Assembly: GCA_040881665.1 (NCBI GenBank)
Contig: JBBECT010000007.1
Location: 186,001-250,000, forward strand
DNA: 64,000 nucleotides
From: Actinomycetota bacterium
GTDB lineage: Bacteria > Actinomycetota > UBA4738 > HRBIN12
Reading direction: 5' to 3'
In this document: in pieces, positions 18,733 to 31,615 of the stretch
How positions within the stretch are numbered: position 1 is the stretch's first letter
How the letters are laid out: each line of letters opens with the position of its first letter
Position numbers and translations under genes: made by a program
The notes under the pieces: generated by a model
What the model saw: the letters and a program-made list of their open reading frames with translations, nothing else
The model's database searches: none
What the model was told of the DNA's origin: nothing

Positions 18733-19827
18733 TCACGCGCCCGTGAGGGAGGCCTTGAGCCGATCGATCACCTCGACCGGGGTCGGATCGAACCCCCGAA
18801 GGATGCCGAGGTACACGCTCGCGAAGTCGCCCGTGAGGATCAACGAACACAGCTGCGAGAGCGCCGTCGCGCCGGTCGCAACGATCTCCTCGGTGACCAG
18901 GCCCGCACCTTCGGCGATGTCGATCGACAAGGGGAACCGCGGCGCGACCTCGGGATGTTCGTCCGCGACGCGCAACCCGATCAGGAAGAACCCGTCACCC
19001 GTCCCCGCCGTCCACCCGACGACCTCGTTGTGGTCCAGTTCGGGCAACGCCGAAGAGAACGCGGGGGTCTTGCCGTTCTCGTTCATCTGGGTCTTCCACC
19101 GCATCGCGGCGACCGACCCGATGTCCTCCGCTCCCCAGATCACCGGCGTCCGCCGGCCGATCCGCCGGGCGAGGTCCTTCGCGAGGTTCGTCTCCCCGGT
19201 GGCGGTCGGGCCGAGACGCGCGGCCAGGCCCTCGAGCACCCGCGCGGTCTCCTCCACGTCCGCCTCGAGCGTCGACGGGAGCCACCCGGCCTCCTCGAGC
19301 ATCCCGAGCAGGCCGAACGCCAGCTGGCCGAGCGCCGCGCGAGGTTGGTAGCCGGGAGGCAGGGCCGTGGTCGCCACGCCGAGGTTGCCCGCAGCCGCTC
19401 CGAGCCGTCCTCCGCTGGTGATCGCGAGGACCCGCGCCCCCCGTTCCTGGGCCTCGGAGAAGCACGACAGCGTCTCCGCGGTGTTCCCCGAGTACGAGGA
19501 ACACACCACGAGGCTGTGGTGTCCGACGTAGGCGGGGAGCTGCGGGCCCCGCACGACCTCGAACGGAACCGTGAGCCGGTCACGGAAGACCGATCGCACC
19601 AGATCGCCCGCCACGGCGGATCCCCCCATGCCGCAGACCACGATCGACGACACGTCGTCGATCATCGGCAACCCCTCGACGGCCCGGCCGGCCGCGTACC
19701 CGGCGCGCGCGTCGGCGGGCAGTTGCGTGACGCGGTCGAGCATGCCCGAGGGATCCGCGGCGCGGAGCGCCTCGAGATCGTCGAGGTCGCCGACCGGCTC
19801 CCCGGGGGCGGGGACCGGAGCCGTCAC
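18733..19827 (-). CDS. SIS-domain phosphoglucose/phosphomannose isomerase-like protein
   Basis: A 364-aa protein resembling bifunctional glucose-6-phosphate/mannose-6-phosphate isomerases. The first SIS domain has CGMGGSAVAGDLV and the phosphosugar-binding SSYSGNTAETL; the C-terminal part contains NENGKTPAFSSALPELDHNE, typical of this family. The GTG start at 19825-19827 overlaps the upstream stop as GTGA, so the two genes are coupled. In mycobacteria the corresponding gene (Rv3256c) lies between manB and manA. It probably feeds mannose/glucose phosphates to the polysaccharide pathways nearby; actual isomerase activity is unproven. Confidence 0.83.
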   Translation of the reverse strand: MTAPVPAPGEPVGDLDDLEALRAADPSGMLDRVTQLPADARAGYAAGRAVEGLPMIDDVSSIVVCGMGGSAVAGDLVRSVFRDRLTVPFEVVRGPQLPAYVGHHSLVVCSSYSGNTAETLSCFSEAQERGARVLAITSGGRLGAAAGNLGVATTALPPGYQPRAALGQLAFGLLGMLEEAGWLPSTLEADVEETARVLEGLAARLGPTATGETNLAKDLARRIGRRTPVIWGAEDIGSVAAMRWKTQMNENGKTPAFSSALPELDHNEVVGWTAGTGDGFFLIGLRVADEHPEVAPRFPLSIDIAEGAGLVTEEIVATGATALSQLCSLILTGDFASVYLGILRGFDPTPVEVIDRLKASLTGA

Positions 19828-20009
19828 TTCTTGCGACCCTCGGGCGGCTTTTCGGCCTCGTCGATCAGCATCACCGGGATCTGATCGCGGATCGGGTATC
19901 GGTACCCGCACGACAGGCAGACGATCACCTGCTCGGCGTCGCGTTCCTCCACCTCGCCGTGGCAGTTGGGGCAGGCGAGGATCTCCATCAGCTTGGGGTC
20001 GAGCGCCAT
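19824..20009 (-). CDS. Trm112-like small zinc-ribbon protein
   Basis: A 61-aa protein of the Trm112/YcaR (UPF0434) family. It begins MALDPKLMEILACPNC and has two CxxC knuckles (CPNC at about 13-16 and CLSC at about 32-35), followed by GYRYPIRDQIPVML. In other organisms Trm112 activates methyltransferases; the bacterial short forms have no assigned role. The ATG start has AAGGAG upstream. The gene is sandwiched between manB and the isomerase, a conserved actinobacterial arrangement. Confidence 0.87.
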   Translation of the reverse strand: MALDPKLMEILACPNCHGEVEERDAEQVIVCLSCGYRYPIRDQIPVMLIDEAEKPPEGRKK

Positions 20010-20081
20010 CGATTGCTCCTTTCCGCCGCGGTCAAACGCGATCGGGGACCGGCGAGCGGTCTCTCGCAAACGGTCGCGACG

Positions 20082-21422
20082 TCAGCCGCGGATCACGCCG
20101 AGGACCTCGGCCGTCTTCTGCTCGAGAAGTGGCTCCGTCCTCGCTTCGACGTTCAACCGCAGTAGCGGTTCGGTGTTCGACGGCCGCACGTTGCACCACC
20201 AGTCCTCGAACTCTACCGTCAGGCCGTCGAGTCGGTCCTGCCGCCCGTCCGACAATCTCGTGGCGATCTCGGTGATCTTGCCCTGCTGATCGGTCACCTC
20301 GGAGTTGATCTCGCCCGAGTCGTGGTAGCGGCGGAGCGGCAGCAGGAGTTCGGAGAGCGGGGCCTCGGTCGCCGACAGCCGCGCGAGTACGACCACCGCG
20401 GCGATCAGCCCCGAATCGGCCCGGTAGTTGTCGCGGAAGTAGTAGTGACCGGAATGCTCGCCCCCGAAGATCGCTCCCGTCTCGGCCATCACCGCCTTGA
20501 TGTAGGAATGGCCCACGCGCGTACGGACCGGCTTCCCCCCGTGCTCGCGGATCACCTCCGGCACGGTCCAGCTGCAGATCAGGTTGTAGACGACCTCCGC
20601 TCCGGGTTCCTGCTCCAGCATCGCTCCGGCCACGAGCGCGGTGACCAGCGAGCCCGACACGTCCCCGGCCGCCTCGTCGATCAGGAACACGCGATCCGCG
20701 TCGCCGTCGAACGCCAACCCGATATCGGCACCGTGCTCGAGCACCGCCGCCTTCAGATCCTTCTGGTTCTCGGGGTTGATCGGATCGGCGGGGTGGTTCG
20801 GGAACGTCCCGTCGAGTTCGGGGAACAGGTGCACGAGCTCGACCGGGATCCGCTCGAGGACGGCGGGTACGACGAGCCCACCCATCCCGTTGGCCGTGTC
20901 GGCCACGATGCGCAGTGGGCGGATCGCGGCCGGATCGATGAACGACACCACGTGATCCACGTACCGGCCGAGCATGTCCATCTCCTGTACCGATCCGGGC
21001 GCAGGGACCGATGCGGGCTGGGGGTCGCGCTCGGCGAGGGCACGGACCTGCTCCAGCCCGGTGTCCGCCGAGACCGGCTTCGCGCCGGCGAGGCAGAACT
21101 TGATGCCGTTGTACCGGGGCGGGTTGTGGCTGGCGGTGAGCATCAGCCCCGGGACATCGAGTGCTCCCGAGGCGAAGTAGAGGAGGTCCGTCGAGGCGAG
21201 GCCGAGATCGACGACATCGGCTCCGCGGGAGGTCGCGCCCTCCGCGAGCGCCGCACCGAGCGACGCGGAGGAGATCCGGCAGTCGCGGCCGATCGCGATC
21301 CGCGGCGCTTCGCTCCACGCTGCGAAGGCCGCACCGATCCGGCGAGCGACGTCCTCATCGAGCTCGTCGGGGACGACGCCGCGGACGTCGTAGGCCTTGA
21401 AGATGCTGGTCAGATCCGGCAC
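20082..21422 (-). CDS. manB: phosphomannomutase/phosphoglucomutase
   Basis: A 446-aa alpha-D-phosphohexomutase that interconverts mannose-6-phosphate and mannose-1-phosphate (or the glucose equivalents), feeding GDP-mannose and other sugar nucleotides. Motifs: the phosphoserine loop TASHNPPRYNGIKF, the metal site FDGDADRVFLIDE, the sugar-specificity loop GEHSGHYYF, and the phosphate-binding RPSNTEPLLRLN. The GTG at 21420-21422 is chosen because TAGGAT lies 7 nt before it; the ATG 9 nt further upstream falls inside that box. A Trm112-like gene follows after 72 nt. Confidence 0.94.
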   Translation of the reverse strand: MPDLTSIFKAYDVRGVVPDELDEDVARRIGAAFAAWSEAPRIAIGRDCRISSASLGAALAEGATSRGADVVDLGLASTDLLYFASGALDVPGLMLTASHNPPRYNGIKFCLAGAKPVSADTGLEQVRALAERDPQPASVPAPGSVQEMDMLGRYVDHVVSFIDPAAIRPLRIVADTANGMGGLVVPAVLERIPVELVHLFPELDGTFPNHPADPINPENQKDLKAAVLEHGADIGLAFDGDADRVFLIDEAAGDVSGSLVTALVAGAMLEQEPGAEVVYNLICSWTVPEVIREHGGKPVRTRVGHSYIKAVMAETGAIFGGEHSGHYYFRDNYRADSGLIAAVVVLARLSATEAPLSELLLPLRRYHDSGEINSEVTDQQGKITEIATRLSDGRQDRLDGLTVEFEDWWCNVRPSNTEPLLRLNVEARTEPLLEQKTAEVLGVIRG

Positions 21423-21429
21423 GCGCCGC

Positions 21430-21435
21430 ATCCTA
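21430..21435 (-). promoter_or_regulatory. candidate leaderless -10 for manB
   Basis: TAGGAT on the minus strand, 7 nt before the manB GTG. An alternative ATG start overlaps the box, which argues against that ATG. Confidence 0.55.
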
Positions 21436-21480
21436 CTCGACGGGCGCAGACCGACCGGATCGGGTCGGGACGACGAACGA

Positions 21481-21499
21481 CCCGCGCGCAACGCGCGGG
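21481..21499 (-). terminator. strong GC hairpin between zinc-ribbon gene and manB
   Basis: CCCGCGCG-CAA-CGCGCGGG forms a perfect 8-bp stem with a 3-nt loop. It is flanked on both sides by the direct repeat CGACGAACGA (21471-21480 and 21501-21510). It lies 55 nt after the stop of the zinc-ribbon gene. There is no T-tract, common for GC-rich actinobacterial terminators. Confidence 0.5.
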
Positions 21500-21554
21500 C
21501 CGACGAACGATCGAGAGGGCGACGACGCGAGGGTGGTGAGCGGGAACCGTGAGC

Positions 21555-21755
21555 TCAGGCTGAGCGGGTTCCGACCACGGTGCCGATCACCTGTTGGAGA
21601 GATGCATCCTCCCCGTCCTTGTGCCACCACTTCGCTTCGCAGAAGTGGCAGGTGGTGAACGACAGGTCCCGGTCGCCGACCGCCATCTCGATCGTGATCA
21701 GCTCGCCCTGTTCACACTGGGGGCAGAGCCGCTCGGGGGCGATCGCTTCTTCCAT
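21555..21755 (-). CDS. small zinc-ribbon protein of unknown function
   Basis: A 66-aa protein with two CxxC knuckles, CPQC (about residues 11-14) and CHFC (about 36-39), forming a probable zinc ribbon. The stretch between them (ELITIEMAVGDRDLSF) is beta-forming, and FCEAKWWHKDG follows. This resembles small zinc-ribbon proteins of actinobacteria, but no function can be assigned. The ATG has GGAAGGA about 10 nt upstream. It lies between the DUF3499 gene and manB, on the same strand and separated from each by a strong hairpin. Confidence 0.72.
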   Translation of the reverse strand: MEEAIAPERLCPQCEQGELITIEMAVGDRDLSFTTCHFCEAKWWHKDGEDASLQQVIGTVVGTRSA

Positions 21756-21813
21756 GCGGGCAATCCTTCCGTGCCGTGGCGTCGACGGCCATAGCTCAGC
21801 AGCCCCATTTCTC

Positions 21814-21832
21814 GGGGGCCCCGCGGGCCCCC
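21814..21832 (-). terminator. strong GC hairpin downstream of the DUF3499 gene
   Basis: GGGGGCCC-CGC-GGGCCCCC, an 8-bp perfect stem with a 3-nt loop, about 100 nt after the DUF3499 stop. On the minus strand GAGAAATG follows rather than a T-run. It is probably a terminator or mRNA-stabilising end. Confidence 0.45.
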
Positions 21833-21932
21833 TCTCCGATGGGCCGCACCCATGGCGCGCGGCCCCGGTCGGGGGACCGAGTCATCGGCCGTGGCGCTCC
21901 TGGCGTCTCCCCCGGTGGGCCGTCTCCGCTGG

Positions 21933-22229
21933 TCAGGCGCTCTCGACGGCGGAAGGCGCGGTTCCGACGTCGGGGGAGGGAGCCGCGGGCTCGGGGTCGG
22001 ATCCGGCCTCGGACGCGGCCACGTCGGGAAGGATTAGGACGTTCCGGTCGTCGCGGATCCGCCAGCCCAGCGGGGGCTTGAGCGTGCGGATGTGCTCCTC
22101 GCACAGATCGAGGAGGTTCCGATCGGGCTGGGGGGTCAGGTCGGCGACCAGCACCTCCCGTTCCCCGTAGCGCAGGGCGACGGTCGCGATCGCGCCCGCT
22201 TCGCAACGCATCTTCGCGCAGGTACGCAT
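21933..22229 (-). CDS. DUF3499 family protein
   Basis: A 98-aa protein of the actinobacteria-specific DUF3499 family. It starts MRTCAKMRCEAGAIATVALRY, with paired cysteines, and contains the family core LLDLCEEHIRTLKPPLGW. The last 30 residues are a low-complexity acidic/proline tail. Function unknown, but it is genetically linked to manB and whiB in many actinobacteria. No SD is visible. TAGCCT lies 6 nt before the ATG, consistent with a leaderless mRNA, and a palindrome shared with whiB adjoins the box. Confidence 0.85.
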   Translation of the reverse strand: MRTCAKMRCEAGAIATVALRYGEREVLVADLTPQPDRNLLDLCEEHIRTLKPPLGWRIRDDRNVLILPDVAASEAGSDPEPAAPSPDVGTAPSAVESA

Positions 22230-22235
22230 GCGGGA

Positions 22236-22241
22236 AGGCTA
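22236..22241 (-). promoter_or_regulatory. candidate leaderless -10 for the DUF3499 gene
   Basis: TAGCCT on the minus strand with 6 nt to the ATG at 22229. The palindrome at 22243-22258 starts one base upstream of this box. Confidence 0.5.
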
Positions 22242-22242
22242 G

Positions 22243-22258
22243 ATCACAGGCATGTGAT
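22243..22258. promoter_or_regulatory. operator-like palindrome ATCACA-N4-TGTGAT (DUF3499 promoter)
   Basis: ATCACAGGCATGTGAT: perfect 6-bp inverted arms around 4 nt, lying in the -10/-35 spacer region of the DUF3499 promoter. The same arms and spacing recur inside the longer palindrome at the whiB promoter. The binding protein is unknown. Confidence 0.55.
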
Positions 22259-22317
22259 TTCCAAGCATGTGCGAGAGAAGTCGGGATCCGCCGGGATGCG
22301 ACGGGCCGGGCAGGAGA

Positions 22318-23382
22318 TCAGTAGACGTAGACCGGCGTGCCGATCGGGATGATCTCGTAGAGCTGCTCGGACTCGGCGATCCGCATCCGGATGCACCCGT
22401 GGGACGCCGCGGTGCCGATCGAACTCTCCGAGTAGGTCCCGTGGATCCGGATCCCCGGCGCGTTGAGGTAGAGCGCGCGCGTGCCGAGCGGATTGCCCGG
22501 TCCCGGACCGATCGAGGCGGGCAAGCCGGAACCCCAGCCGTCCGGCGCGGGATTGACCCACGTCGGGTTCGCGACCTTGTTGATGACCTCGAACGCCCCG
22601 GAGGGAGTGGGGAACTCCGCCGTGCCGGTGGCGACACCGTAGGTCTTCACCACGTCGAAACCCTTGTAGGCGAACAGCTTGTTCTGCGCCTTGCTCACCA
22701 GGAGCGTGTAGCCGAGGTTGTCCTCGGTGACCTCGGGTGCCACCTTCTCGACCGGCAGGCGAACGCCGCGCTCTCGATCGAGCAGGGCACGCCGCACCTG
22801 TGCGACGGCCTGCTTGGCATCGACTGTCCGGCCCGCGACCGCCTTCTGGAAGACGACGTCGTCGCCCTCCATCGTGACCGCCGCGTCGGTCGCGTCCTCG
22901 GTGACCTCGCCGACGACCTCGTCGACGAACACCTCGATCGATTGCCTGCGCGAACGGAACCCGAGGTCGACCTCACGCTCGACGGGTTCGTCCGTCACCC
23001 GATGGTAGACCCGTGAGAACAGTCCCATCGAGCTGTTCGCGCGCATCGCACGATCCACCGCGCCGGAGATGTTGGCCTTGAGCCCCAGATCCGACGCCGT
23101 GACGACCCATGACTCACCGCCGGCCTCGACCGTCAGTTCACCCTCGAGGGTTCGCCTGGCCTCGCGCTTGACGGCCTTGACAGCCTCGGAGCGGGTCATC
23201 TCGCCCACATCGATGCCCGCAACCGTCACACCCGGCATCAGGCGGCTCGCGTTGCTGTTGTCGTAGCGGACGGCTGCGAACGCGGTCCCGCCCGCAACGA
23301 GCCCCGCGACACCGATCACCGCGAGCACGACGAGCAGCCGGCGGTGACGAGCGGAGGAACGGGCGTGCTTGCCCTTGCTCAC
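22318..23382 (-). CDS. L,D-transpeptidase with PG-binding-4-type domain
   Basis: A 354-aa membrane-anchored L,D-transpeptidase (YkuD fold), which forms 3-3 peptidoglycan cross-links. A single N-terminal membrane anchor spans about residues 15-37. Next comes a VanW-associated/PG_binding_4-like region (about 55-230, containing ASRLMPGVTVAGIDVGEMT). The catalytic domain has the His in RIHGTYS and the Cys in ASHGCIRM. All catalytic residues are present. GTG start with AAAGG upstream; a TATCCT box lies at 23429-23434. It lies in an envelope-oriented cluster with DUF5719 and a giant glycosyltransferase. Confidence 0.92.
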   Translation of the reverse strand: MSKGKHARSSARHRRLLVVLAVIGVAGLVAGGTAFAAVRYDNSNASRLMPGVTVAGIDVGEMTRSEAVKAVKREARRTLEGELTVEAGGESWVVTASDLGLKANISGAVDRAMRANSSMGLFSRVYHRVTDEPVEREVDLGFRSRRQSIEVFVDEVVGEVTEDATDAAVTMEGDDVVFQKAVAGRTVDAKQAVAQVRRALLDRERGVRLPVEKVAPEVTEDNLGYTLLVSKAQNKLFAYKGFDVVKTYGVATGTAEFPTPSGAFEVINKVANPTWVNPAPDGWGSGLPASIGPGPGNPLGTRALYLNAPGIRIHGTYSESSIGTAASHGCIRMRIAESEQLYEIIPIGTPVYVY

Positions 23383-23428
23383 GATGCGGCCTTTCGGACG
23401 AAGGGGGTCGGGGCGGGGCGACCGGACC

Positions 23429-23434
23429 AGGATA
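23429..23434 (-). promoter_or_regulatory. candidate -10 box for the L,D-transpeptidase gene
   Basis: TATCCT on the minus strand, about 47 nt before the GTG start, in the 124-nt gap after the DUF5719 gene. Confidence 0.4.
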
Positions 23435-23506
23435 CCGGGCGATCTTCACTCTCGCCCATGGTTCCTGGTGCCCATCTCGTGGTTCCTCGATCACCGCTCG
23501 GTGTGC

Positions 23507-24949
23507 TCACGGCGGGTCGGCCACCCACGCCGGATCGATCGGGGCCCCGGCCGACACGGCGTAGGCCGCGACACCGTCCTTGCCCTGCGAATAGGACGCC
23601 GTCGCCGTGACGACCGCGCCGTCGGAGACCCGGACGAGCACCGGTGCTCGGGGTGAGGGCCCGAAGAGGGCCGTGGGCGCCTCAACGGTCCGTCCCGGCC
23701 GCACCTGCAGCTGTCTGGTTACCCGATCGCCCTCGCGCGGCAGGGTCGTGAGCGTGACCTCGGCGGCGTCGGCACCCGGGTTCGTGACGACGAGCACCGG
23801 CTGCTGAGGAGCCTCCCCCACCGAGGGGAACACGATCCATTGGGCGCCGGGAGCCGGCGCTCCGGCCGTCGCGCCGAGATCCTGGGTTCGGCCGGAGGTG
23901 CGCCGCGTCGCGAAGACGCCCGGACGATCGCGACCGCCGCGCAGCCAGATCGTCGAGGGGTCCGGAGCAGCGATGTCGAGCCGCTGGGCCGTCTCGCCGC
24001 GTTGCAGCTGCTCCTTCCCCTTGGCGAAGACCTGCGATCCGTGGGAGCCGAGCATCGATGCCGCGTACGCGGTCGAGCGGTCCTCCGGCGCGATGACCGT
24101 GACGACGGAGTCGCCGTCCTGTCCCGCTCCCGGCAGGTACGCACCACTCGGCGTCGGGCCCTGCCAGCCGATAACCCCGCGAACCCCGCGATCCTTCGAG
24201 ATCCCGAGGGTCGACGCCGCGACCCGCCCGAGCGATGACGTGATCGTCGCCCCGAGCACCCGGTCGCCCTCCGCGAACTCGTCCAGCTCGAACGCGACGC
24301 TGCGGCCCGCCGGCAGGACGTAGTCGTCCCACTCCGAGACGTTGCCGGGCGGATCTGACGCGCGGAGCACCTCGAGTGTGAACACGGCGTCTCCCGAGAA
24401 CGGATTCATCACCACCACGAAGGTCTGCTCCTCCTTCGCTTCGGCGGTGCCGTCCCCGAGGGTCCAGACGGGACCTGCCTCGGACAGACAGGGTTCCGCG
24501 CTGATCCCCACATCGTCACCCCCGGTGCGCGCGACCCAACCGGCCGCGACATGGCCGCCGAAGTACTCGACCACCGTGGCGCTCCCCCGGTCGGTCGCCG
24601 GCGCGACGAGCTCGACGGAGCCTCCCGGCGGCACCCTGACGCGCTCACTCCCCGGCCCGCGTTCGGGACCCAGTCGCCGCGCGCGGACCTCGACGGGTTC
24701 GGACCCCGGATTCGCAACCGAGATCACCGCCTCCCAGTCCTTGCCGCCACCATGCGGGCAGTACCACGCGCCCGACGCGACGATACCTACGGCGCCGGTT
24801 CCCCGGTCGCGTTCTCCGAGGACGCCTTGGGTCAGCAGCGCACCGGCGACGAGGATCCCGACCAGGACGAGCGCAACGAGGGTCTGGCCACGCGGGCGGA
24901 GCTGTTCCCGCGTGCGAGCACGGCGTCCGGGCGTCACGGGGTCGCTCAT
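23507..24949 (-). CDS. DUF5719 family membrane-anchored protein
   Basis: A 480-aa protein with one N-terminal membrane helix (about residues 25-46, TLVALVLVGILVAGALL) after a basic tail, and a large extracytoplasmic beta-rich part. It resembles the actinobacterial DUF5719 family, which is found next to giant GT2/membrane proteins. Two cysteines (GAWYCPHGGG and SAEPCLSEAG) could form a disulfide outside the cell. The ATG overlaps the preceding gene's stop as ATGA, so it is coupled to the glycosyltransferase and probably acts with it at the envelope. No enzymatic motif is seen. Confidence 0.75.
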   Translation of the reverse strand: MSDPVTPGRRARTREQLRPRGQTLVALVLVGILVAGALLTQGVLGERDRGTGAVGIVASGAWYCPHGGGKDWEAVISVANPGSEPVEVRARRLGPERGPGSERVRVPPGGSVELVAPATDRGSATVVEYFGGHVAAGWVARTGGDDVGISAEPCLSEAGPVWTLGDGTAEAKEEQTFVVVMNPFSGDAVFTLEVLRASDPPGNVSEWDDYVLPAGRSVAFELDEFAEGDRVLGATITSSLGRVAASTLGISKDRGVRGVIGWQGPTPSGAYLPGAGQDGDSVVTVIAPEDRSTAYAASMLGSHGSQVFAKGKEQLQRGETAQRLDIAAPDPSTIWLRGGRDRPGVFATRRTSGRTQDLGATAGAPAPGAQWIVFPSVGEAPQQPVLVVTNPGADAAEVTLTTLPREGDRVTRQLQVRPGRTVEAPTALFGPSPRAPVLVRVSDGAVVTATASYSQGKDGVAAYAVSAGAPIDPAWVADPP

Positions 24950-27900
24950 CTCGACGACACCGGCTTCCTCGTCACCCAGAGGGCCGCGAGCCACAGCACC
25001 GCCAGCAGGAGTATCTGGAGGGTTCGGACCCATTGGTCCGTGTACCGGATGCTCACGCGATCCGCGCCCTCCGGAACCTCGAACCCGAACGCCCACGCGA
25101 ACGCGCGCTCCGCCTCAACCTCATCCGGACCGTCCGAAAGCCGCCATCCCGTCGCGAACTGCTCGCCGACGAAGGCATATGCGGGCTGCTGCTGCGGCGC
25201 CGGTCCCTGCCAGCCGCCGGGAGCCGCGTGCAGTTGCTCGGACCCCCGCGGCCCGGGGAGCGCAGCGACGTCCCGCGGGTCCGCGCTCCGCGCGGCCTCG
25301 AGGAAGCGATCATCGGCCGGCACGACCGAGGCCTCGGGGAACGTCCGGGCGTTCCGATACACGGTGAGCTCGCCCTCGGTGACCTTGTCCAGGTCGAGCT
25401 GGGACTCGAGGCGGACCAGCGTCTCGGCCGGCAGGTCGCCCTCGGCGGCAACGACGAAACGGATCCCGTAGGGAGCCAGCAGGGCGCCCGTGTGCCGGTT
25501 CTCCCCCGACACGAGTTCGACGAGGGAGCTCTCGAGCTCGTCGTAGCCCGGCCCCCGATCCGCCCGCCCGGTGTCGAGGGCGACGATGCCGCGACGCCCG
25601 GTCAGCCCGTAACGCACCGACGCCGGACCCGCCTCGACGACGCCGATCGGTTCGCCGCCGGGCGCGAGGAACTGACCGCCGCCGGCACCCCCGAGCCACA
25701 GGACTCGGAACTCCGCGCTGCCGCGTTGCTCGGAGACGACCGACCACGCGGGAGGCAGGCCGTCGTCGCGGATCCGCCAGTCGCCGACCGACGCGGCCAC
25801 CACCTGCAGGGTCAGTCCGAGGGTCAAGACGAAGGTGAGCACGGCGGACAGGACCTGCCGCGGTCCGAAGGTCTCGCGGCCGATGCCGCCCGAGACCAGG
25901 GATGCTCCCCCGAACCCGATCAGCATGGCCTCGCATGCCGCAACCAGGATCGTGTACGCGGGAGCGTTCGCGAGCGGCGTGGGCAGCCACCCCGCGGCCG
26001 ACAGCCATGAAAGGAGGATGCCGGCGACCGCGATGATCGCGACCCGATTCGCGGTGGCCCGGTGCTCTCGGGCGACGACGACGAGCGAACAGATCGCCGC
26101 GACGGGAAGGAACCACGCGATCGCCCAGTCCCCGGGAGCCGGTCCGATCACGACCCGGATGATCGCTGCGAAGTCGGTCGTACCGACCAGGGAGGAGAAG
26201 GACGCATCCGGTGCACTCAGGAGGGTCGGGACGATCGGGAACACGAGCGCCGCACCGATCACGATACCGGCGAGCGAGGTCCTCAGACCGCGGGCGATCG
26301 TCGTTCCGGCGGTGATCGCGACGACCGCCAGGACGACCGCGAAGGGGAGCAGCACGGCCGGTTGGAACGCCACGCCGATCGCGAGCGCGATCCCGAGGCC
26401 GGCGGCGATCCGCTGCCAGCGCTGGGGTGGTTCGGCCGCGAAGGCGGCGGCGATCCGTTCGATCAGGACGGGCACGACAGCCAGCATCACGAGCAGATCG
26501 ATCCGACCCTCGGACAGGGCCCACATCGTCGCGGCGCACACCCCGTAGCAGCCGGCGGCGAGCGTGGCCGATGTGCGCTCTCCCGTCAGGCGCACCAACG
26601 CCCGGTACGCGGTGGCGGCGGCGAGCACGGGGAGGAGGACCAGCAGCAGCCGCTGGGCGAGAGAGGGATCGCCGAAGGTGAGCCACGAGGCGGACCCGAG
26701 CGCCGCGAGGGACGGACTCGCTGCGTCCGTCCCGCCCAATCCGGTCGTGCGGACCCCCGAAACGAGCTCTGCGAAGAAGCCCCCCGCGGACGCGGGGAAC
26801 GCGGCCAGGGCTCCGCCTCCCAGATCGTCCGCCCCCAGGATCCGTCCGCCCGCCAGGAACACCACGACTGCCGCGACGGCCACACCCACGAGCGCCGGGT
26901 GGCGCCGGATCAGCGATGCCGCATGCTCTCGGACCCGGAAGCTCTCCTCGCCCTCGTCGATCTGCTGCTGTTCGGCCAGGATCTTGTTCGCCTCGTCCAC
27001 CCAGCGCGGGATCCGGAACGTGGCCGACTCCATGAAGCGACGGATCTCGCGATCGGGGACCGTGCGCACGCGCTGGGTACGGCGGCGGCGTGCGAGCGTT
27101 CCCGGCAGGTGGACGACGTTCCAGCCCCAGCCTGAGAGCAGCTCCCACGCGTCCTCGAATCGACGCGTCACCGTGAGCAGGAGGGTGCGACCCAGCCCGA
27201 TCAGAGCGAAGAACGGCAGGAGCACCAGGAGCGAGCCGATCGAGTAGTTCTTCAACATGGCCGTGAGCGATGCCCGCTCGGCGTAGTAGCGCTCGGATCG
27301 GTGCTTACCGATATCCTCGCGAGCACCACGCGAGGTGGCCGAAGCGTGCCGAACCCGAGCCAGTGGCGTCATCACGACCTTGAACCCGGCGAGCCGGGCA
27401 CGCCAGCACAGATCCAGGTCCTCATGGTGGGAGGTCAGACGCTCGTCCAGCGCGCCGACCGTCTGCCACACCTCGCGCGAGACGAGCATCGCGCACGAGG
27501 AGACGAAGAGGACTTCGATCACGCGGTCGTACTGCCCGTGATCGATCTCGCCGTCCTGGAGCGGCTGGGTCGGATGACCGAACCGATCGGTGGACCGGCC
27601 GACCTCTCGCAGGATCCGTGGATCGTCCCAGTCCACGACCTTGGGACCGACCACGCCGGCCCGCTCGACCGATCCGGCGGTCTCGACGAGCCCGGCGACG
27701 GTGTCCGGCTCGAGGACGGTGTCGTCGTGGAGCACGAGCAGGTAGTCCGACTCCGAGGCGACCGGCAGCTCGAGGGCCCGGTCGACCGAGGCGGCGAGCC
27801 CCGCGTCCCGACCGAGCTCCAGGACGCGACCCGGGCCGAGCGCCCGCTCGAGCAGCTCGCGGGACCCGTCGGTCGATCCGTTGTCGACCGCGACGACACC

Positions 27901-28056
27901 CAGCCGGGGATAGGACTGGCCGGAAAGTCCCTGGAGGCACTCGCGGAGCCAGGGCGCGCCGTCGCCCGCCACCAGCACCGCGAGAACGGTGGGGGTGCGC
28001 ACCTGGCCGTCGACGGGGCGATCGGCGGGTGCACGGTCGGCGTCTGCGCGGATCAT
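24946..28056 (-). CDS. giant GT2 glycosyltransferase with polytopic membrane domain
   Basis: A 1036-aa fusion. Residues about 20-260 are a family-2 glycosyltransferase with VAVDNGSTDGS, the metal-binding LLVLHDDT (HDD in place of the usual DxD) and LTSHHEDLDLCWRARLAG. A membrane helix at about 275-297 is followed by a cytoplasmic linker, then from about 385 a long region with 12 or more hydrophobic segments and a large soluble loop before a final helix. It resembles the actinobacterial giant glycosyltransferase/membrane proteins linked to whiB2 and DUF5719; the product is an envelope glycan or glycoprotein, not further defined. A TAGGCT box lies at 28103-28108. Confidence 0.85.
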   Translation of the reverse strand: MIRADADRAPADRPVDGQVRTPTVLAVLVAGDGAPWLRECLQGLSGQSYPRLGVVAVDNGSTDGSRELLERALGPGRVLELGRDAGLAASVDRALELPVASESDYLLVLHDDTVLEPDTVAGLVETAGSVERAGVVGPKVVDWDDPRILREVGRSTDRFGHPTQPLQDGEIDHGQYDRVIEVLFVSSCAMLVSREVWQTVGALDERLTSHHEDLDLCWRARLAGFKVVMTPLARVRHASATSRGAREDIGKHRSERYYAERASLTAMLKNYSIGSLLVLLPFFALIGLGRTLLLTVTRRFEDAWELLSGWGWNVVHLPGTLARRRRTQRVRTVPDREIRRFMESATFRIPRWVDEANKILAEQQQIDEGEESFRVREHAASLIRRHPALVGVAVAAVVVFLAGGRILGADDLGGGALAAFPASAGGFFAELVSGVRTTGLGGTDAASPSLAALGSASWLTFGDPSLAQRLLLVLLPVLAAATAYRALVRLTGERTSATLAAGCYGVCAATMWALSEGRIDLLVMLAVVPVLIERIAAAFAAEPPQRWQRIAAGLGIALAIGVAFQPAVLLPFAVVLAVVAITAGTTIARGLRTSLAGIVIGAALVFPIVPTLLSAPDASFSSLVGTTDFAAIIRVVIGPAPGDWAIAWFLPVAAICSLVVVAREHRATANRVAIIAVAGILLSWLSAAGWLPTPLANAPAYTILVAACEAMLIGFGGASLVSGGIGRETFGPRQVLSAVLTFVLTLGLTLQVVAASVGDWRIRDDGLPPAWSVVSEQRGSAEFRVLWLGGAGGGQFLAPGGEPIGVVEAGPASVRYGLTGRRGIVALDTGRADRGPGYDELESSLVELVSGENRHTGALLAPYGIRFVVAAEGDLPAETLVRLESQLDLDKVTEGELTVYRNARTFPEASVVPADDRFLEAARSADPRDVAALPGPRGSEQLHAAPGGWQGPAPQQQPAYAFVGEQFATGWRLSDGPDEVEAERAFAWAFGFEVPEGADRVSIRYTDQWVRTLQILLLAVLWLAALWVTRKPVSSR

Positions 28057-28102
28057 GCGGGGTCAGGTTCGCTCGAGGGGGGCCGCGCGAGGAACGGCGC
28101 GG

Positions 28103-28108
28103 AGCCTA
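28103..28108 (-). promoter_or_regulatory. candidate -10 box for the GT2/DUF5719 operon
   Basis: TAGGCT on the minus strand, about 46 nt before the ATG of the giant glycosyltransferase gene and beyond the hairpin that ends the H1-like gene. Confidence 0.4.
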
Positions 28109-28133
28109 GCACGCGACCGGACGCCGAACGCGC

Positions 28134-28160
28134 CGAAGGGGGGCCGGTGGCCCCCCTTCG
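28134..28160 (-). terminator. very strong hairpin after the H1-like gene
   Basis: A perfect 12-bp stem, CGAAGGGGGGCC with its complement, around the 3-nt loop GGT, starting 20 nt after the stop of the H1-like gene. No T-tract follows, but the stability is exceptional. It separates the H1-like gene from the glycosyltransferase operon. Confidence 0.65.
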
Positions 28161-28180
28161 AGATCGCATGACGATGCCGA

Positions 28181-28615
28181 TCAGCGGCGCTTCGTGCGGC
28201 GTGCGGAGCTCTTGCGCCGCGTCGCCTTCTTCCGCGCCGGCTTGCGCCCGGCCGTCTTGCGCTTGGCGGTCGACTTCTTGCGACGCCCAGGCTTGCGCTT
28301 CGCAGCGGTCTTCCGCTTGGCGGTCGACTTCTTGCGACGTGCCGGCTTGCGCTTCGCAGCGGTCTTCCGCTTGGCGCTCGACTTGCGCTTGGCGGTCGAC
28401 TTCTTGCGACGCCCAGGCTTGCGCTTCGCAGCGGTCTTCCGCTTGGCGGTCGACTTCTTGCGACGCGCCGGCTTCCGTGCGGCAGTCTTCCGCTTCGCGG
28501 TGGACCTCCGCTTCGCGGTGGACTTCCGGGCGGGCTTGCGCTTCGCAGCGGTCTTCCGTTTCGCAGTCGACTTCCTACGAGCCGGCTTCCTGGCTGTGCG
28601 CTTCTTGGCAGCCAT
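28181..28615 (-). CDS. histone-H1-like Lys/Ala/Arg-rich repeat protein
   Basis: A 144-aa, almost wholly basic, low-complexity protein built from variants of KKSTAKRKTAAKRKPGR, with nearly no acidic or hydrophobic residues. This resembles the histone-H1-like C-terminal tails of eukaryotes and the HC2/AlgP and actinobacterial HupB-tail type of nucleoid proteins. It has no globular DNA-binding domain. It probably binds DNA or RNA non-specifically. A 54-bp DNA unit is repeated nearly identically four times (from 28261, 28315, 28387 and 28441), so copy number may vary between strains. The ATG has a good SD (AAGGGGG). It lies 61 nt downstream of whiB. Confidence 0.85.
   Translation of the reverse strand: MAAKKRTARKPARRKSTAKRKTAAKRKPARKSTAKRRSTAKRKTAARKPARRKKSTAKRKTAAKRKPGRRKKSTAKRKSSAKRKTAAKRKPARRKKSTAKRKTAAKRKPGRRKKSTAKRKTAGRKPARKKATRRKSSARRTKRR
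28261..28478. repeat. 54-bp tandem repeats inside the H1-like gene
   Basis: Near-identical 54-bp units start at 28261, 28315, 28387 and 28441 (the last partial). The 18-bp fragment GCTTGGCGCTCGACTTGC separates units two and three. The first and third units are identical. The unit encodes one 18-residue KKSTAKRKTAAKRKPGRR-type repeat, so gains or losses keep the frame. Confidence 0.88.
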
Positions 28616-28676
28616 CCCGTTCCCCCTTCCGTTCTTCCCGGTCGATCTCCTGCGGCGCCTCGAGTCGGTGGCGCCT

Positions 28677-28904
28677 CTACGACGCCATCCGCTTCAGGCG
28701 CCGTCGCTCCCGTTCGCTCATCCCGCCCCAGACGCCGTACCGCTCATCTCGGCGCAACGCGTAGTTCAGGCATTCGATCCGAACGGGGCACTCAGCACAG
28801 ATCCGCTTGGCCTCCCTCGATGAGCCTCCCTTCTCGGGGAAGAAGACCTCGGGGTCGTAATCGCGACACCGTGCGCGCTCTTGCCATGGGATGTAGTGAT
28901 GCAC
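28677..28904 (-). CDS. whiB: WhiB-family iron-sulfur transcription factor (WhiB2/WhmD-like)
   Basis: A 75-aa Wbl protein. Four cysteines (about C13, C36, C39 and C45, in the C-x2-C-x5-C arrangement of CAECPVRIEC) bind a 4Fe-4S cluster; the GVWGG turn and the basic ERERRRLKRM tail for DNA contact follow. WhiB proteins of this class bind the primary sigma factor and control septation genes (WhiB in Streptomyces, WhiB2 in mycobacteria). The synteny with manB, DUF3499 and fbiAB supports the WhiB2 assignment. The GTG start has GGGGGGAG upstream. A 24-bp palindrome overlaps its likely promoter, suggesting repression by an unknown factor. Confidence 0.93.
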   Translation of the reverse strand: MHHYIPWQERARCRDYDPEVFFPEKGGSSREAKRICAECPVRIECLNYALRRDERYGVWGGMSERERRRLKRMAS

Positions 28905-28917
28905 TTCTCTCTCCCCC

Positions 28918-28941
28918 CAGAATCACACGCGTGTGATTCTG
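28918..28941. promoter_or_regulatory. 24-bp perfect palindrome on the whiB promoter
   Basis: Half-site CAGAATCACACG followed directly by its exact complement. It contains ATCACA-N4-TGTGAT, the same core as at the DUF3499 promoter. It lies 14 nt before the whiB start and overlaps the best -10 (CAGAAT, 28936-28941), so a bound protein would block initiation. Confidence 0.75.
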
Positions 28942-28965
28942 AGCGAATTCCCACCTTCCTGACAA
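28936..28965 (-). promoter_or_regulatory. candidate whiB promoter
   Basis: On the minus strand, TTGTCA (28960-28965), an 18-nt spacer, and CAGAAT (28936-28941). The surrounding 200 bp is less GC-rich than the rest of the window, as expected for a regulated promoter region. Confidence 0.4.
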
Positions 28966-29053
28966 GTGCTGAGACGACTTTTTTCCATCCACGATCTGCG
29001 CTCCCCAAAGCATCGTGGACAGCGGTTCCGGCCGTTGCAAGGGCTTCCGGGCG

Positions 29054-29073
29054 AAAAATGCGTCAGGAACGCA
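29054..29073 (-). terminator. intrinsic terminator after fbiC
   Basis: On the minus strand TGCGT-TCCTG-ACGCA followed by TTTTT, a 5-bp stem (6 with a G-U pair) plus U-tract, about 44 nt after the fbiC stop. It is the only hairpin with a proper T-run found in the window. Confidence 0.6.
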
Positions 29074-29116
29074 CAGTAAATGTGGTTGACCGTATCTGTC
29101 AGCTAGCTTGACGGAC

Positions 29117-31615
29117 TCACGCGATCGACGCGTCAGATCGGTGCACACGGCCGTACGTCGTGGTCCGTTCGACGGGAGATCGGCCGATCGAACGGATCGC
29201 GTCGTGGAAGGCGCGCACCTCCATCTCGATCCCCCACTCCGCCCCCGCCATGCGGCTGATCGTCTCCTCCATCAACGTGCCACCGAAGTCGTTCGCGCCC
29301 CCTCGCAATAGCGCGCAGCACGCGTCGATGCCGAGCTTGACCCACGACACCTGCACGTTGTCGATCCGACCCGCGAGCAGGACGCGCGCGATCGCGTGCA
29401 ACCGACGATCCTCGTCGAACGTGGAGCCCGGTTTCGCCTTCCCCGCAAGGTAGATCGGAGCGTTCTGGTGAACGAACGGGAGTGGGACGAACTCGGTGAA
29501 TCCGCCCGTGTCGTCCTGGATCCGCGCGAGTCTTCGGATGTGTGCGACCCAATGCGGCGGTGCGTCGACATGTCCGTACATGATCGTGGACGAGGACCGC
29601 AGGCCGACACGATGCGCGGTCCGCACGATCTCCTCCCACGTGTCGGCCGGAAGCTTCCCTTTCGTGAGCACCCATCGCACGTCGTCGTCGAGGATCTCCG
29701 CCGCCGTTCCGGGGATCGACCCCAATCCGCGTGATCGACACTCGGTCAGGAACTCCTCGAAGGACACGCCGAGTTTCGTCGCACCGTTCAAGATCTCCAT
29801 CGGCGAGAACGCGTGCACGTGGATGTCGGGCACGCGTGACGTCACCGCGTCGAGGAGGTCGAAATAGAACGTCGCCGGCAGATCCGGGTGGATCCCGCCT
29901 TGCATGCAGACCTCAGTCGCGCCGGATTCCCATGCTTCCTGTGCACGGCCGGCGACCTCGTCCAGGGTCAGGGTGTAGGACTCGGGATCGTTCTCCCGCT
30001 GGGCGAATGCACAGAAGCGACACCCCACGTAGCAGACGTTGGTGAAGTTGATGTTCCGGTTGACCACGTAGGTGATCTCGTCCCCGACAGCCTGTTTCCG
30101 CAGCTCATCGGCCACATCTGCGAGCGCGTCGAGGGCGGGACCCTCGCTCCGGAACAGCGCGAGCGCCTGATCGTCGCTCAGCTCGGATCCCGACTCGGCG
30201 GCACGGAGCGCTTCCTTGATCTGGCGGTCAAGCCGTTCGGGAGCGGGCGCCGACCCCTCCCAGGCACGGGTGAGCGCCAGCCGTTCCGATCCGTCGGCCT
30301 CCATGTCCCCGTAGACCACCTCGGCGTCCTCCCGGAGGCCGGCACCGGGTCCCTTGGAGAAGGTGAGATCGATCGTGCGGGGCTTCCACTGGATCTGGGG
30401 GTCCTGCCACGGGATCGGCGCCGGCGCCTGTCCCTCCCGGGCGAGTCCGTCCTCCGCCAGGAGAGCGGTGACCGGACCACGCATCGTGCCTGCGAGGAAG
30501 GGATCGGGCCGTGCCGCGAACCCCGGGTAGATCGTGAGTCGCTCCCGCAGCTCCAGACCCCGTTCGGCGGTGGTCGCCGCGAGGGTATCGGTCGCCGGCC
30601 ACGGACGCTCGGGGTTGACGTGGTCGGGTGTGAGGGGAGAGACCCCGCCCCAGTCGTCGATCCCGGCGTCGAGGAGCCGCCCCTGCTGCTCGCCGTCGGA
30701 CAGGTTCGGCGGTGCCTGCACGTGCATCCGGGGCCCGAAGACCACCCGGGCGGCGGCCACGACGGCCAGGAACTCCTCGTCGCCCGGCTCGGCCGCGGCA
30801 TGCATCGCGGTGGCGGGCTTCGCCCGGAAGTTCTGGACGATCACCTCTTGCAGGTGGCCGTATCGGCGATGGAGCTCGCGGATCGCAAGCAGCGAGGCCG
30901 CCCGCTCGGAGGCCGTCTCGCCGATCCCGACGAGGATGCCCGTCGTGAAGGGGATCGCAAGCCGCCCGGCGTCCTCGATCGTTCGCAACCGGACGGCCGG
31001 CACCTTGTCGGGCGAGCGGTGGTGAGGACCGCCCTCCTGCGACAAGCGGTCCGAGGAGGTCTCCAGCATCAGTCCCATCGATGCGCTGACGTGCTTGAGA
31101 CGGGCGAGCTCCTCGTAGGCCATCACACCGGGGTTCAGGTGCGGGAGAAGCCCTGTCGCCTCGATCACCCGGATCGCGACGGCCCGAACGTAGTCCAGTG
31201 TCGACGCGTACCCGCGCTCGGCGAGCCAGTCGCGCGCCTCGGGGTACCGATCCTCGGGCCGGTCGCCGAGGGTGAACAGCGCCTCCTTGCATCCCGCCGT
31301 CCTGCCCGCTTCCGCGATCGCCACGACCTCCTCCGGCGTCAGGAACGGCGCGTCGATCCGGGCCGGAGGCTTGGCGAAGGTGCAGTAGTGGCATCGGTCC
31401 CGGCAGAGCATCGTGAGCGGCACGAATACCTTGCGGGAGTAGGTGACCGTCGTTCCGTGCCCCAGCTCGCGGAGCCGGGACGCTAGCTGCAGGAGCCGCT
31501 CGAGTCCCGCCCCTCGCGCCTCGATCAGGGCTTGCACCTCGGGCGGGGACAGCGAACGGCCGGCCTCGGCGCGGGCGAGTGCCCGGCGCAGCTGGTGTTC
31601 GTTCCCTCCGGACAT
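29117..31615 (-). CDS. fbiC: 7,8-didemethyl-8-hydroxy-5-deazariboflavin (Fo) synthase FbiC
   Basis: An 832-aa fusion of the radical-SAM enzymes CofG and CofH, which make Fo, the deazaflavin core of coenzyme F420, from tyrosine and a riboflavin precursor. The CofG half has the CxxxCxxC cluster at C71/C75/C78 (CRDRCHYC); the CofH half has a second at C528/C532/C535 (CYVGCRFC). The fused form is typical of actinobacteria. The ATG at 31613-31615 is where similarity starts. TAGGCT lies 7 nt upstream, so the mRNA may be leaderless. It diverges from fbiA with only 27 nt between start codons. Confidence 0.96.
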   Translation of the reverse strand: MSGGNEHQLRRALARAEAGRSLSPPEVQALIEARGAGLERLLQLASRLRELGHGTTVTYSRKVFVPLTMLCRDRCHYCTFAKPPARIDAPFLTPEEVVAIAEAGRTAGCKEALFTLGDRPEDRYPEARDWLAERGYASTLDYVRAVAIRVIEATGLLPHLNPGVMAYEELARLKHVSASMGLMLETSSDRLSQEGGPHHRSPDKVPAVRLRTIEDAGRLAIPFTTGILVGIGETASERAASLLAIRELHRRYGHLQEVIVQNFRAKPATAMHAAAEPGDEEFLAVVAAARVVFGPRMHVQAPPNLSDGEQQGRLLDAGIDDWGGVSPLTPDHVNPERPWPATDTLAATTAERGLELRERLTIYPGFAARPDPFLAGTMRGPVTALLAEDGLAREGQAPAPIPWQDPQIQWKPRTIDLTFSKGPGAGLREDAEVVYGDMEADGSERLALTRAWEGSAPAPERLDRQIKEALRAAESGSELSDDQALALFRSEGPALDALADVADELRKQAVGDEITYVVNRNINFTNVCYVGCRFCAFAQRENDPESYTLTLDEVAGRAQEAWESGATEVCMQGGIHPDLPATFYFDLLDAVTSRVPDIHVHAFSPMEILNGATKLGVSFEEFLTECRSRGLGSIPGTAAEILDDDVRWVLTKGKLPADTWEEIVRTAHRVGLRSSSTIMYGHVDAPPHWVAHIRRLARIQDDTGGFTEFVPLPFVHQNAPIYLAGKAKPGSTFDEDRRLHAIARVLLAGRIDNVQVSWVKLGIDACCALLRGGANDFGGTLMEETISRMAGAEWGIEMEVRAFHDAIRSIGRSPVERTTTYGRVHRSDASIA

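Follow-up and report, generated by a model that had tools for sequence, protein, structure and literature searches.

The 16-nt palindrome that precedes the DUF3499 gene is very probably an operator. In all likelihood it is the box of the organism's own orthologue of McdR (ResR), which would repress both whiB and DUF3499 within a wider regulon; we infer binding and repression from sequence comparison. The operator is not a new one, judging from its match to the McdR/ResR box. The window analyzed is a stretch of 64,000 nt from the organism's own genome (G000; 2,458,355 bases, about 70% G+C).

The probable DUF3499 and whiB operators

The DUF3499 gene (98 aa; PF12005, E 5.8e-10) is located at 21933..22229 on the minus strand, with its ATG start codon at 22227-22229. 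The palindrome core ATCACAGGCATGTGAT lies before it at 22243-22258, within the McdR-type operator AATCACATGCCTGTGATC (22242..22259, minus strand). A putative -35, TTGGAA (22259..22264, minus strand), and a putative -10, TAGCCT (22236..22241, minus strand), are separated by a 17-nt gap, which the operator fills. The transcript is probably leaderless, since the -10 sits 6 nt upstream of the ATG. The promoter is read from a layout conserved in relatives, a generic promoter pattern scan having called no sigma-70 promoter and no terminator in 21400-22400. TAnnnT directly follows the box in nine listed same-family DUF3499 promoters and in one promoter of family f2 (read by eye), with the position of the box kept. 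No RNA family reached its gathering score within 19000-29500. The 4-nt center of the DUF3499 palindrome is, unlike the whiB palindrome, not palindromic throughout. A direct repeat, CAGGCATGTG / CAAGCATGTG (22247-22256 and 22262-22271, 15 nt apart), overlaps the DUF3499 operator.

The whiB (WhiB2-like) gene (28677..28904, minus strand; PF02467, E 7.8e-29) has a GTG start and is preceded by the core ATCACACGCGTGTGAT at 28922-28937. Its McdR-type operator, AATCACACGCGTGTGATT (28921..28938, minus strand), lies inside a perfect 24-bp palindrome (28918-28941). The putative -10, CAGAAT (28936..28941, minus strand), overlaps the operator, and the putative -35, TTGTCA (28960..28965, minus strand), lies 18 nt before the -10. 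Among the 15 same-family whiB promoters listed, which were chosen for holding the exact core, all 15 have CAGAAT and all 15 have TTGTCA or TTGCCA. A Lys/Arg-rich, repetitive, histone-H1-like open frame (28181-28615, minus strand) is found directly downstream of whiB.

The palindrome shared by DUF3499 and whiB is not a product of chance. The exact pattern ATCACA-N4-TGTGAT has two copies in the window, and the same two are the only ones in the genome, where a base-composition model leads one to expect 0.0002 for the window and 0.009 for the whole genome. The 16-bp core at ≤ 2 mismatches gave 30 genome sites (3 for the reversed control), and the 18-bp box gave 10 sites at ≤ 1 mismatch (0.107 expected) and 16 at ≤ 2 (0 for the reversed control). 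By class, 1 exact, 9 one-mismatch and 6 two-mismatch boxes were observed, where 0.002, 0.105 and 2.9 were expected; the two-mismatch sites need careful reading because 2.9 of the 6 are expected. The initial annotation had placed the palindrome at 22243-22258, with arms and 4-nt spacer as at whiB, against the -10 of DUF3499 and with no further copy in the window, all of which is borne out. It had also proposed a small regulon, and the 10 to 16 sites of the genome-wide motif scan do not agree with that size.

Identity of the box and probable mode of action

In mycobacteria, the MerR-type protein McdR (Rv1830, = ResR) was reported to bind AATnACAnnnnTGTnATT at the whiB2 promoter and to repress whiB2; mutation of the arms or an altered spacer length abolishes the effect, an altered spacer sequence does not (PMC9040748). 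An identical 18-bp box, with mismatches tolerated, was described for ResR/McdR of M. tuberculosis Erdman (PMC10336103). The regulator has been described as essential and as linked to the drug resilience of M. tuberculosis (PMC9040748, PMC10336103), and its overproduction in mycobacteria lowers the expression of division genes and raises that of DNA replication and repair genes (PMC9040748). The arms AATnACA / TGTnATT of AATnACAnnnnTGTnATT are matched here at 12/12 fixed bases at whiB and at 11/12 at DUF3499. The likeness to the mycobacterial whiB2 site extends to the 4-nt spacer, the place around the whiB start point and the orthologous regulator (PMC9040748). In the listed family promoters the spacer is always 4 nt and its sequence is variable, which counts for an McdR box, whose spacer behaves likewise in PMC9040748. 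A box is present at the start region of the WhiB2-like gene in the 15 core-chosen same-family promoters and at most of the whiB genes seen in other families (see below).

McdR would most likely repress whiB, where the box covers the -10 and the start point, and DUF3499, where a protein in the 17-nt spacer would keep RNA polymerase off. An activating DUF3499 box, in the manner of MerR spacer sites, is conceivable but rather doubtful; whiB and DUF3499 would then answer McdR oppositely. MerR proteins activate by DNA distortion at spacers of 19-20 nt, and a spacer of 16-17 nt is near the sigma-70 optimum. The DUF3499 spacer is 16-17 nt, so no distortion is needed, and activation by distortion is less likely than repression at a 17-nt spacer. 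The placement of the DUF3499 box directly before the -10 in family promoters, where the whiB box covers it, is compatible with activation, as is the rise of recA, dnaB and dnaE2 on McdR overproduction in M. smegmatis, reported in passages that give no direct sites for these genes; the three direct McdR targets of the same paper are, however, all repressed (PMC9040748). The site of FtsR (Rv1828) in M. tuberculosis, which also lies between -35 and -10, is comparable in position to the DUF3499 box; FtsR is a MerR protein encoded near mcdR that acts on division, with its box at ftsZ (PMC6683498). The FtsR site itself (AACCCTAAAGTAAAGGTTGAGGGTA, AACCCTAAAG...GGTTGAGGGTA) is unrelated to the DUF3499/whiB box (PMC6683498).

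The McdR orthologue

The organism's own McdR orthologue (G000:C5:42592-43023) agrees with the orthologues of three genomes of family f28 (presumably the Mycobacteriaceae, as f22 is presumably Streptomyces) at 75-78 of 121 aligned residues. Upstream of mcdR are an opposite-strand CAP gene and then a DUF151 gene with a BFN domain. At a distance of about 4 kb are an FHA-domain (GarA-like) gene and then a MerR (FtsR-like) gene. Rv1827-Rv1830 is presumably the M. tuberculosis counterpart of this mcdR/DUF151/FHA/FtsR-like gene order. Among 396 genomes of the phylum, a strong McdR match (E ≤ 1e-18, a threshold that also admits a MerR paralogue) was present in 111/128 genomes with an exact box and in 88/268 without one, related genomes not being independent. 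The exceptions are the 17/128 box genomes without a strong McdR match and the 88/199 McdR genomes without an exact box. The reversed control pattern occurred in 12 genomes of the phylum table (read by eye).

The paralogue, of the MEGFTAHQACKFTGC type, offers a quite improbable alternative, in which it reads the box instead of McdR or together with it. Each of nine f1 genomes has two strong McdR matches, and of 76 HTH-region residues the organism's own McdR has 38-39 in common with the paralogue, against 49-52 with the f28 orthologues. The paralogue (six rows) forms one side of a tree branch with a support of 100/100. However, f28, f38, f59 and f61 have a single strong match and yet keep the whiB box, and for the mycobacterial box the binding of McdR has been demonstrated (PMC9040748).

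A two-mismatch box, AATTACGGAGTTGTCATG (L365; G000:C5:42568-42585), contains the start codon of mcdR; similar sequences are found at mcdR in G004 and G020, and a one-mismatch box lies upstream of it in G003. These boxes hint at a possible autoregulation. The WhiB2 feedback motif cGACACGc was searched for in five mcdR upstream regions, the organism's own included, and CGACACG was found on neither strand in any of the five; the 6-base core GACACG is present in one of them (L255), not the organism's own.

The DUF3499 gene and its neighborhood

In the DUF3499 protein, C4, C9, C43 and H46 are invariant (alignments of 7 and 10 sequences), and the set looks like a metal site. The predicted structure is a confident small compact domain of about residues 1-60. 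Foldseek gave no match against the PDB at E ≤ 0.001, and a second structure comparison reached a best Z of 2.9; because the fold searches gave no significant PDB match, no function can be inferred for DUF3499 from them. DUF3499 may have a role in division or envelope supply. We take Rv3258c to be the DUF3499 gene of M. tuberculosis. It was reported among the genes whose expression differs about 2-fold in a perM mutant of that species, in a study concerned with a division defect (PMC4450064). In C. glutamicum, cg0853 (the DUF3499 gene) was called the first gene of a Man6P operon and named among envelope candidates (PMC7775120).

Downstream of DUF3499, in gene order on the minus strand, are a gene for a small CxxC protein (21555-21755) and a phosphomannomutase gene (20082-21431), both possible targets of readthrough from the DUF3499 promoter. 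A perfect 8-bp GC hairpin, GGGGGCCC-CGC-GGGCCCCC, without a T run, is located at 21814-21832 between DUF3499 and the next gene. Control of the mannose genes is only a possibility, since this GC-rich hairpin may limit readthrough out of DUF3499.

Conservation of the two sites

The exact core was found in 16/17 same-family genomes (the organism's own included) among 61 searched, with all controls at zero; G005, of the same family, has no exact core. This count selects on the motif, and a second selection was therefore made by the DUF3499 protein, with an alignment built from motif-bearing loci. It found nine loci, all of close relatives, and in 9/9 the 18-bp box is present at ≤ 1 mismatch and stops 12-14 nt short of the start. 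Since eight of the nine contigs had apparently already been met by the motif search and are not new genomes, the 9/9 says that no DUF3499 gene was found there without a box, rather than that the box is present in new genomes. Six of the nine loci also contain whiB, and there the whiB and DUF3499 boxes are the only ones at ≤ 1 mismatch in 7.6-20 kb. A PF12005 match was obtained in 5/9 same-family genomes searched, and all five have the box. The operator common to whiB and DUF3499, suggested by the initial annotation, is upheld as very probable, with the pairing conserved at these nine loci and in these five genomes.

DUF3499 is present in 157/396 genomes searched in the phylum, from which 60 regions spread over 28 other families were taken, with loci placed by match coordinates. 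A DUF3499 box (≤ 3 mismatches, ≤ 200 nt upstream of the match) was found in 13/60, all in f12, f13, f31, f41, f45 and f68, and was absent in the other 47. Random 210-bp windows of the same DNA held a box in 25/1200, true boxes included (Fisher 4e-9 against 13/60, the rows being related). At whiB, a box (≤ 3 mismatches, ≤ 400 nt) was found for 18/21 other-family whiB domain matches, compared with 51/1200 random 405-bp windows; most of the 60 regions have no whiB match. The three misses are L300, which has none, L308, which is cut by a contig end, and L351, in whose genome an exact box is located some 1.3 kb upstream of DUF3499, reckoned to be just outside the 400-nt whiB window. In the 30 best-scoring DUF3499 loci, a box at ≤ 2 mismatches was found at the DUF3499 start in 0/30 and at a whiB-like distance in four. 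The whiB box is common where whiB is visible; only some lineages have the DUF3499 site. The case that had been named as speaking against a shared regulon, absence of the motif at DUF3499 in relatives that keep it at whiB, does occur in other families (f22, f28, f29, f38, f39, f47, f59, f61 and f72, among them the presumed Mycobacteriaceae and Streptomyces), while the site is kept in f1, f2, f3 and six further families.

Proposed regulon in the genome and in relatives

Targets in the organism's own genome were taken from codon-scored gene calls. At ≤ 1 mismatch, the sequence scan places boxes at whiB, DUF3499, nrdJ, recA and pilT, between the divergent genes for dnaE and a RecB-like nuclease, at an HTH_17 gene before pilM, near a C5 DNA methylase gene, and as a pair between two small convergent genes (L164; G000:C4:371881 and 371926). 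Another box, with two mismatches, lies 20 nt upstream of the methylase start (L353; G000:C4:42774, 42849). Further two-mismatch sites are found at dnaB, in the divergent region between HNH-mraZ and MoxR, at mcdR, at C2:6241, which adjoins an integrase-like gene, and at C5:208571. The regulon would also include nrdJ, recA, dnaE with the divergent nuclease gene, pilT, the HTH_17 gene and the DNA methylase, with dnaB, the HNH-mraZ region and mcdR itself as candidate members with weaker boxes. Assignment of the HTH_17 gene as BldC was rejected (30.7 bits against an NCBIfam cut-off of 77). At ≤ 1 mismatch of the 16-bp core, the HNH/MoxR site is found again in eight genomes. Further boxes in relatives lie upstream of SepX-like genes (six genomes; one protein tested, with a weak NCBIfam match, E 1.3e-4), of sbcD (three genomes; SbcD_C in two, the third being a 110-aa metallophosphatase fragment) and of ruvC (two genomes).

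In three genomes (L164, L165, L166) two boxes lie 45-48 bp apart between the 3' ends of small convergent genes, one encoding a CSECGTEF zinc-ribbon-like protein and the other a membrane protein, and there is no evident promoter target. Such paired boxes may belong to an untranslated RNA or have a function other than at a promoter. DNA methyltransferase genes with upstream McdR-type boxes are of the C5 type in the organism's own genome and in G003, and of the N6/N4 type in G297 (L353, L032, L374; Pfam); some of them may have been acquired horizontally. Near recA, an exact LexA box lies about 40 nt from the McdR-type box.

Beyond the family, 40 exact sites were taken from among those listed, with preference for genomes with several; open reading frames were unscored and named targets were checked with Pfam. 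Targets among these 40 are whiB (6), dnaE-like (6; PHP domain only in Pfam), smc (5), a ribbon-helix-helix-type gene (3), DUF3499 (2), DUF3263 (2), and once each HU, pilM, HTH_17, a zinc-ribbon protein and an N6/N4 DNA methylase; for 11 of the 40 no target could be named. The homologue of the McdR target MSMEG_0833 is presumably a DUF3263 protein, of the family that occurs at two of these sites. In three f31 genomes (L370, L371, L378) an exact box lies just before the start of a small protein beginning MYELA(D/G)WG, which is ribbon-helix-helix by Pfam in two of the three and without a Pfam match in L371.

Boxes before recA, ruvC, sbcD, nrdJ and RecB-like genes would suit an unusual SOS (LexA) box, a reading that is highly improbable. 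Canonical LexA boxes of the type CGAACNNNNGTTCG exist separately, with two exact and one single-mismatch box at the organism's own lexA and one exact at its own recA (L085, L111), and McdR-type boxes in lexA loci are separated from the start region of lexA by about 1 kb or more; the arms of GAAC-N4-GTTC also differ. BldM and BldO, both of which act on whiB in Streptomyces (PMC4125116, PMC5485038), and whiB regulators of that type are scarcely credible readers of the site, as TCAC and GTGA are 8 nt apart in the BldM group I site TCACcCgnncGgGTGA (PMC4125116) compared with 6 nt here, and the BldO site TGxAATTxCA does not match the DUF3499/whiB box (PMC5485038).

Relation to known McdR systems and significance

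The operator and its regulator are already known, and DUF3499 would be a new target of a known box. The likeness to mycobacterial McdR includes recA, dnaB and dcw genes, which respond to its overproduction (PMC9040748). Its direct DIP-seq targets were given as whiB2, MSMEG_0833 and MSMEG_5468, whereas here DUF3499, nrdJ, recA, dnaE, pilT and a DNA methylase gene carry boxes and the WhiB2 feedback motif described there was not seen at mcdR (PMC9040748). The ResR/McdR regulon of M. tuberculosis Erdman was, in contrast, described around ribosomal genes (PMC10336103). The main text of PMC9040748 does not name Rv3258, and that of PMC10336103 does not name Rv3258c, smc, dnaE, nrd or recA; the search covered the main texts, further motif hits being given in the supplementary tables of both. 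Among titles found in the literature on DUF3499, Rv3258c, MSMEG_1833 and SCO3040, none names McdR, and a literature search on McdR/ResR together with its box and candidate targets led to these two McdR papers only.

A broader proposal, which is neither favored nor disfavored here, is that McdR would be an ancestral, phylum-wide regulator of the actinobacterial chromosome cycle, with direct action on genes of replication (dnaE, dnaB and nrdJ), of segregation (smc), of repair (recA, ruvC and sbcD) and of division (whiB, the mraZ region and SepX-like genes), and on DUF3499; the mycobacterial McdR, with its few direct targets, would then be what remains of a larger system, and DUF3499 an overlooked gene of the cell cycle. 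The McdR reading gives an anonymous palindrome of an uncultured lineage a named regulator and operator, and it places DUF3499 in one regulatory setting with whiB and the chromosome cycle. Mapping the conserved McdR targets would show which part of the regulon is ancient; smc, dnaE and DUF3499 are targets open to direct tests.
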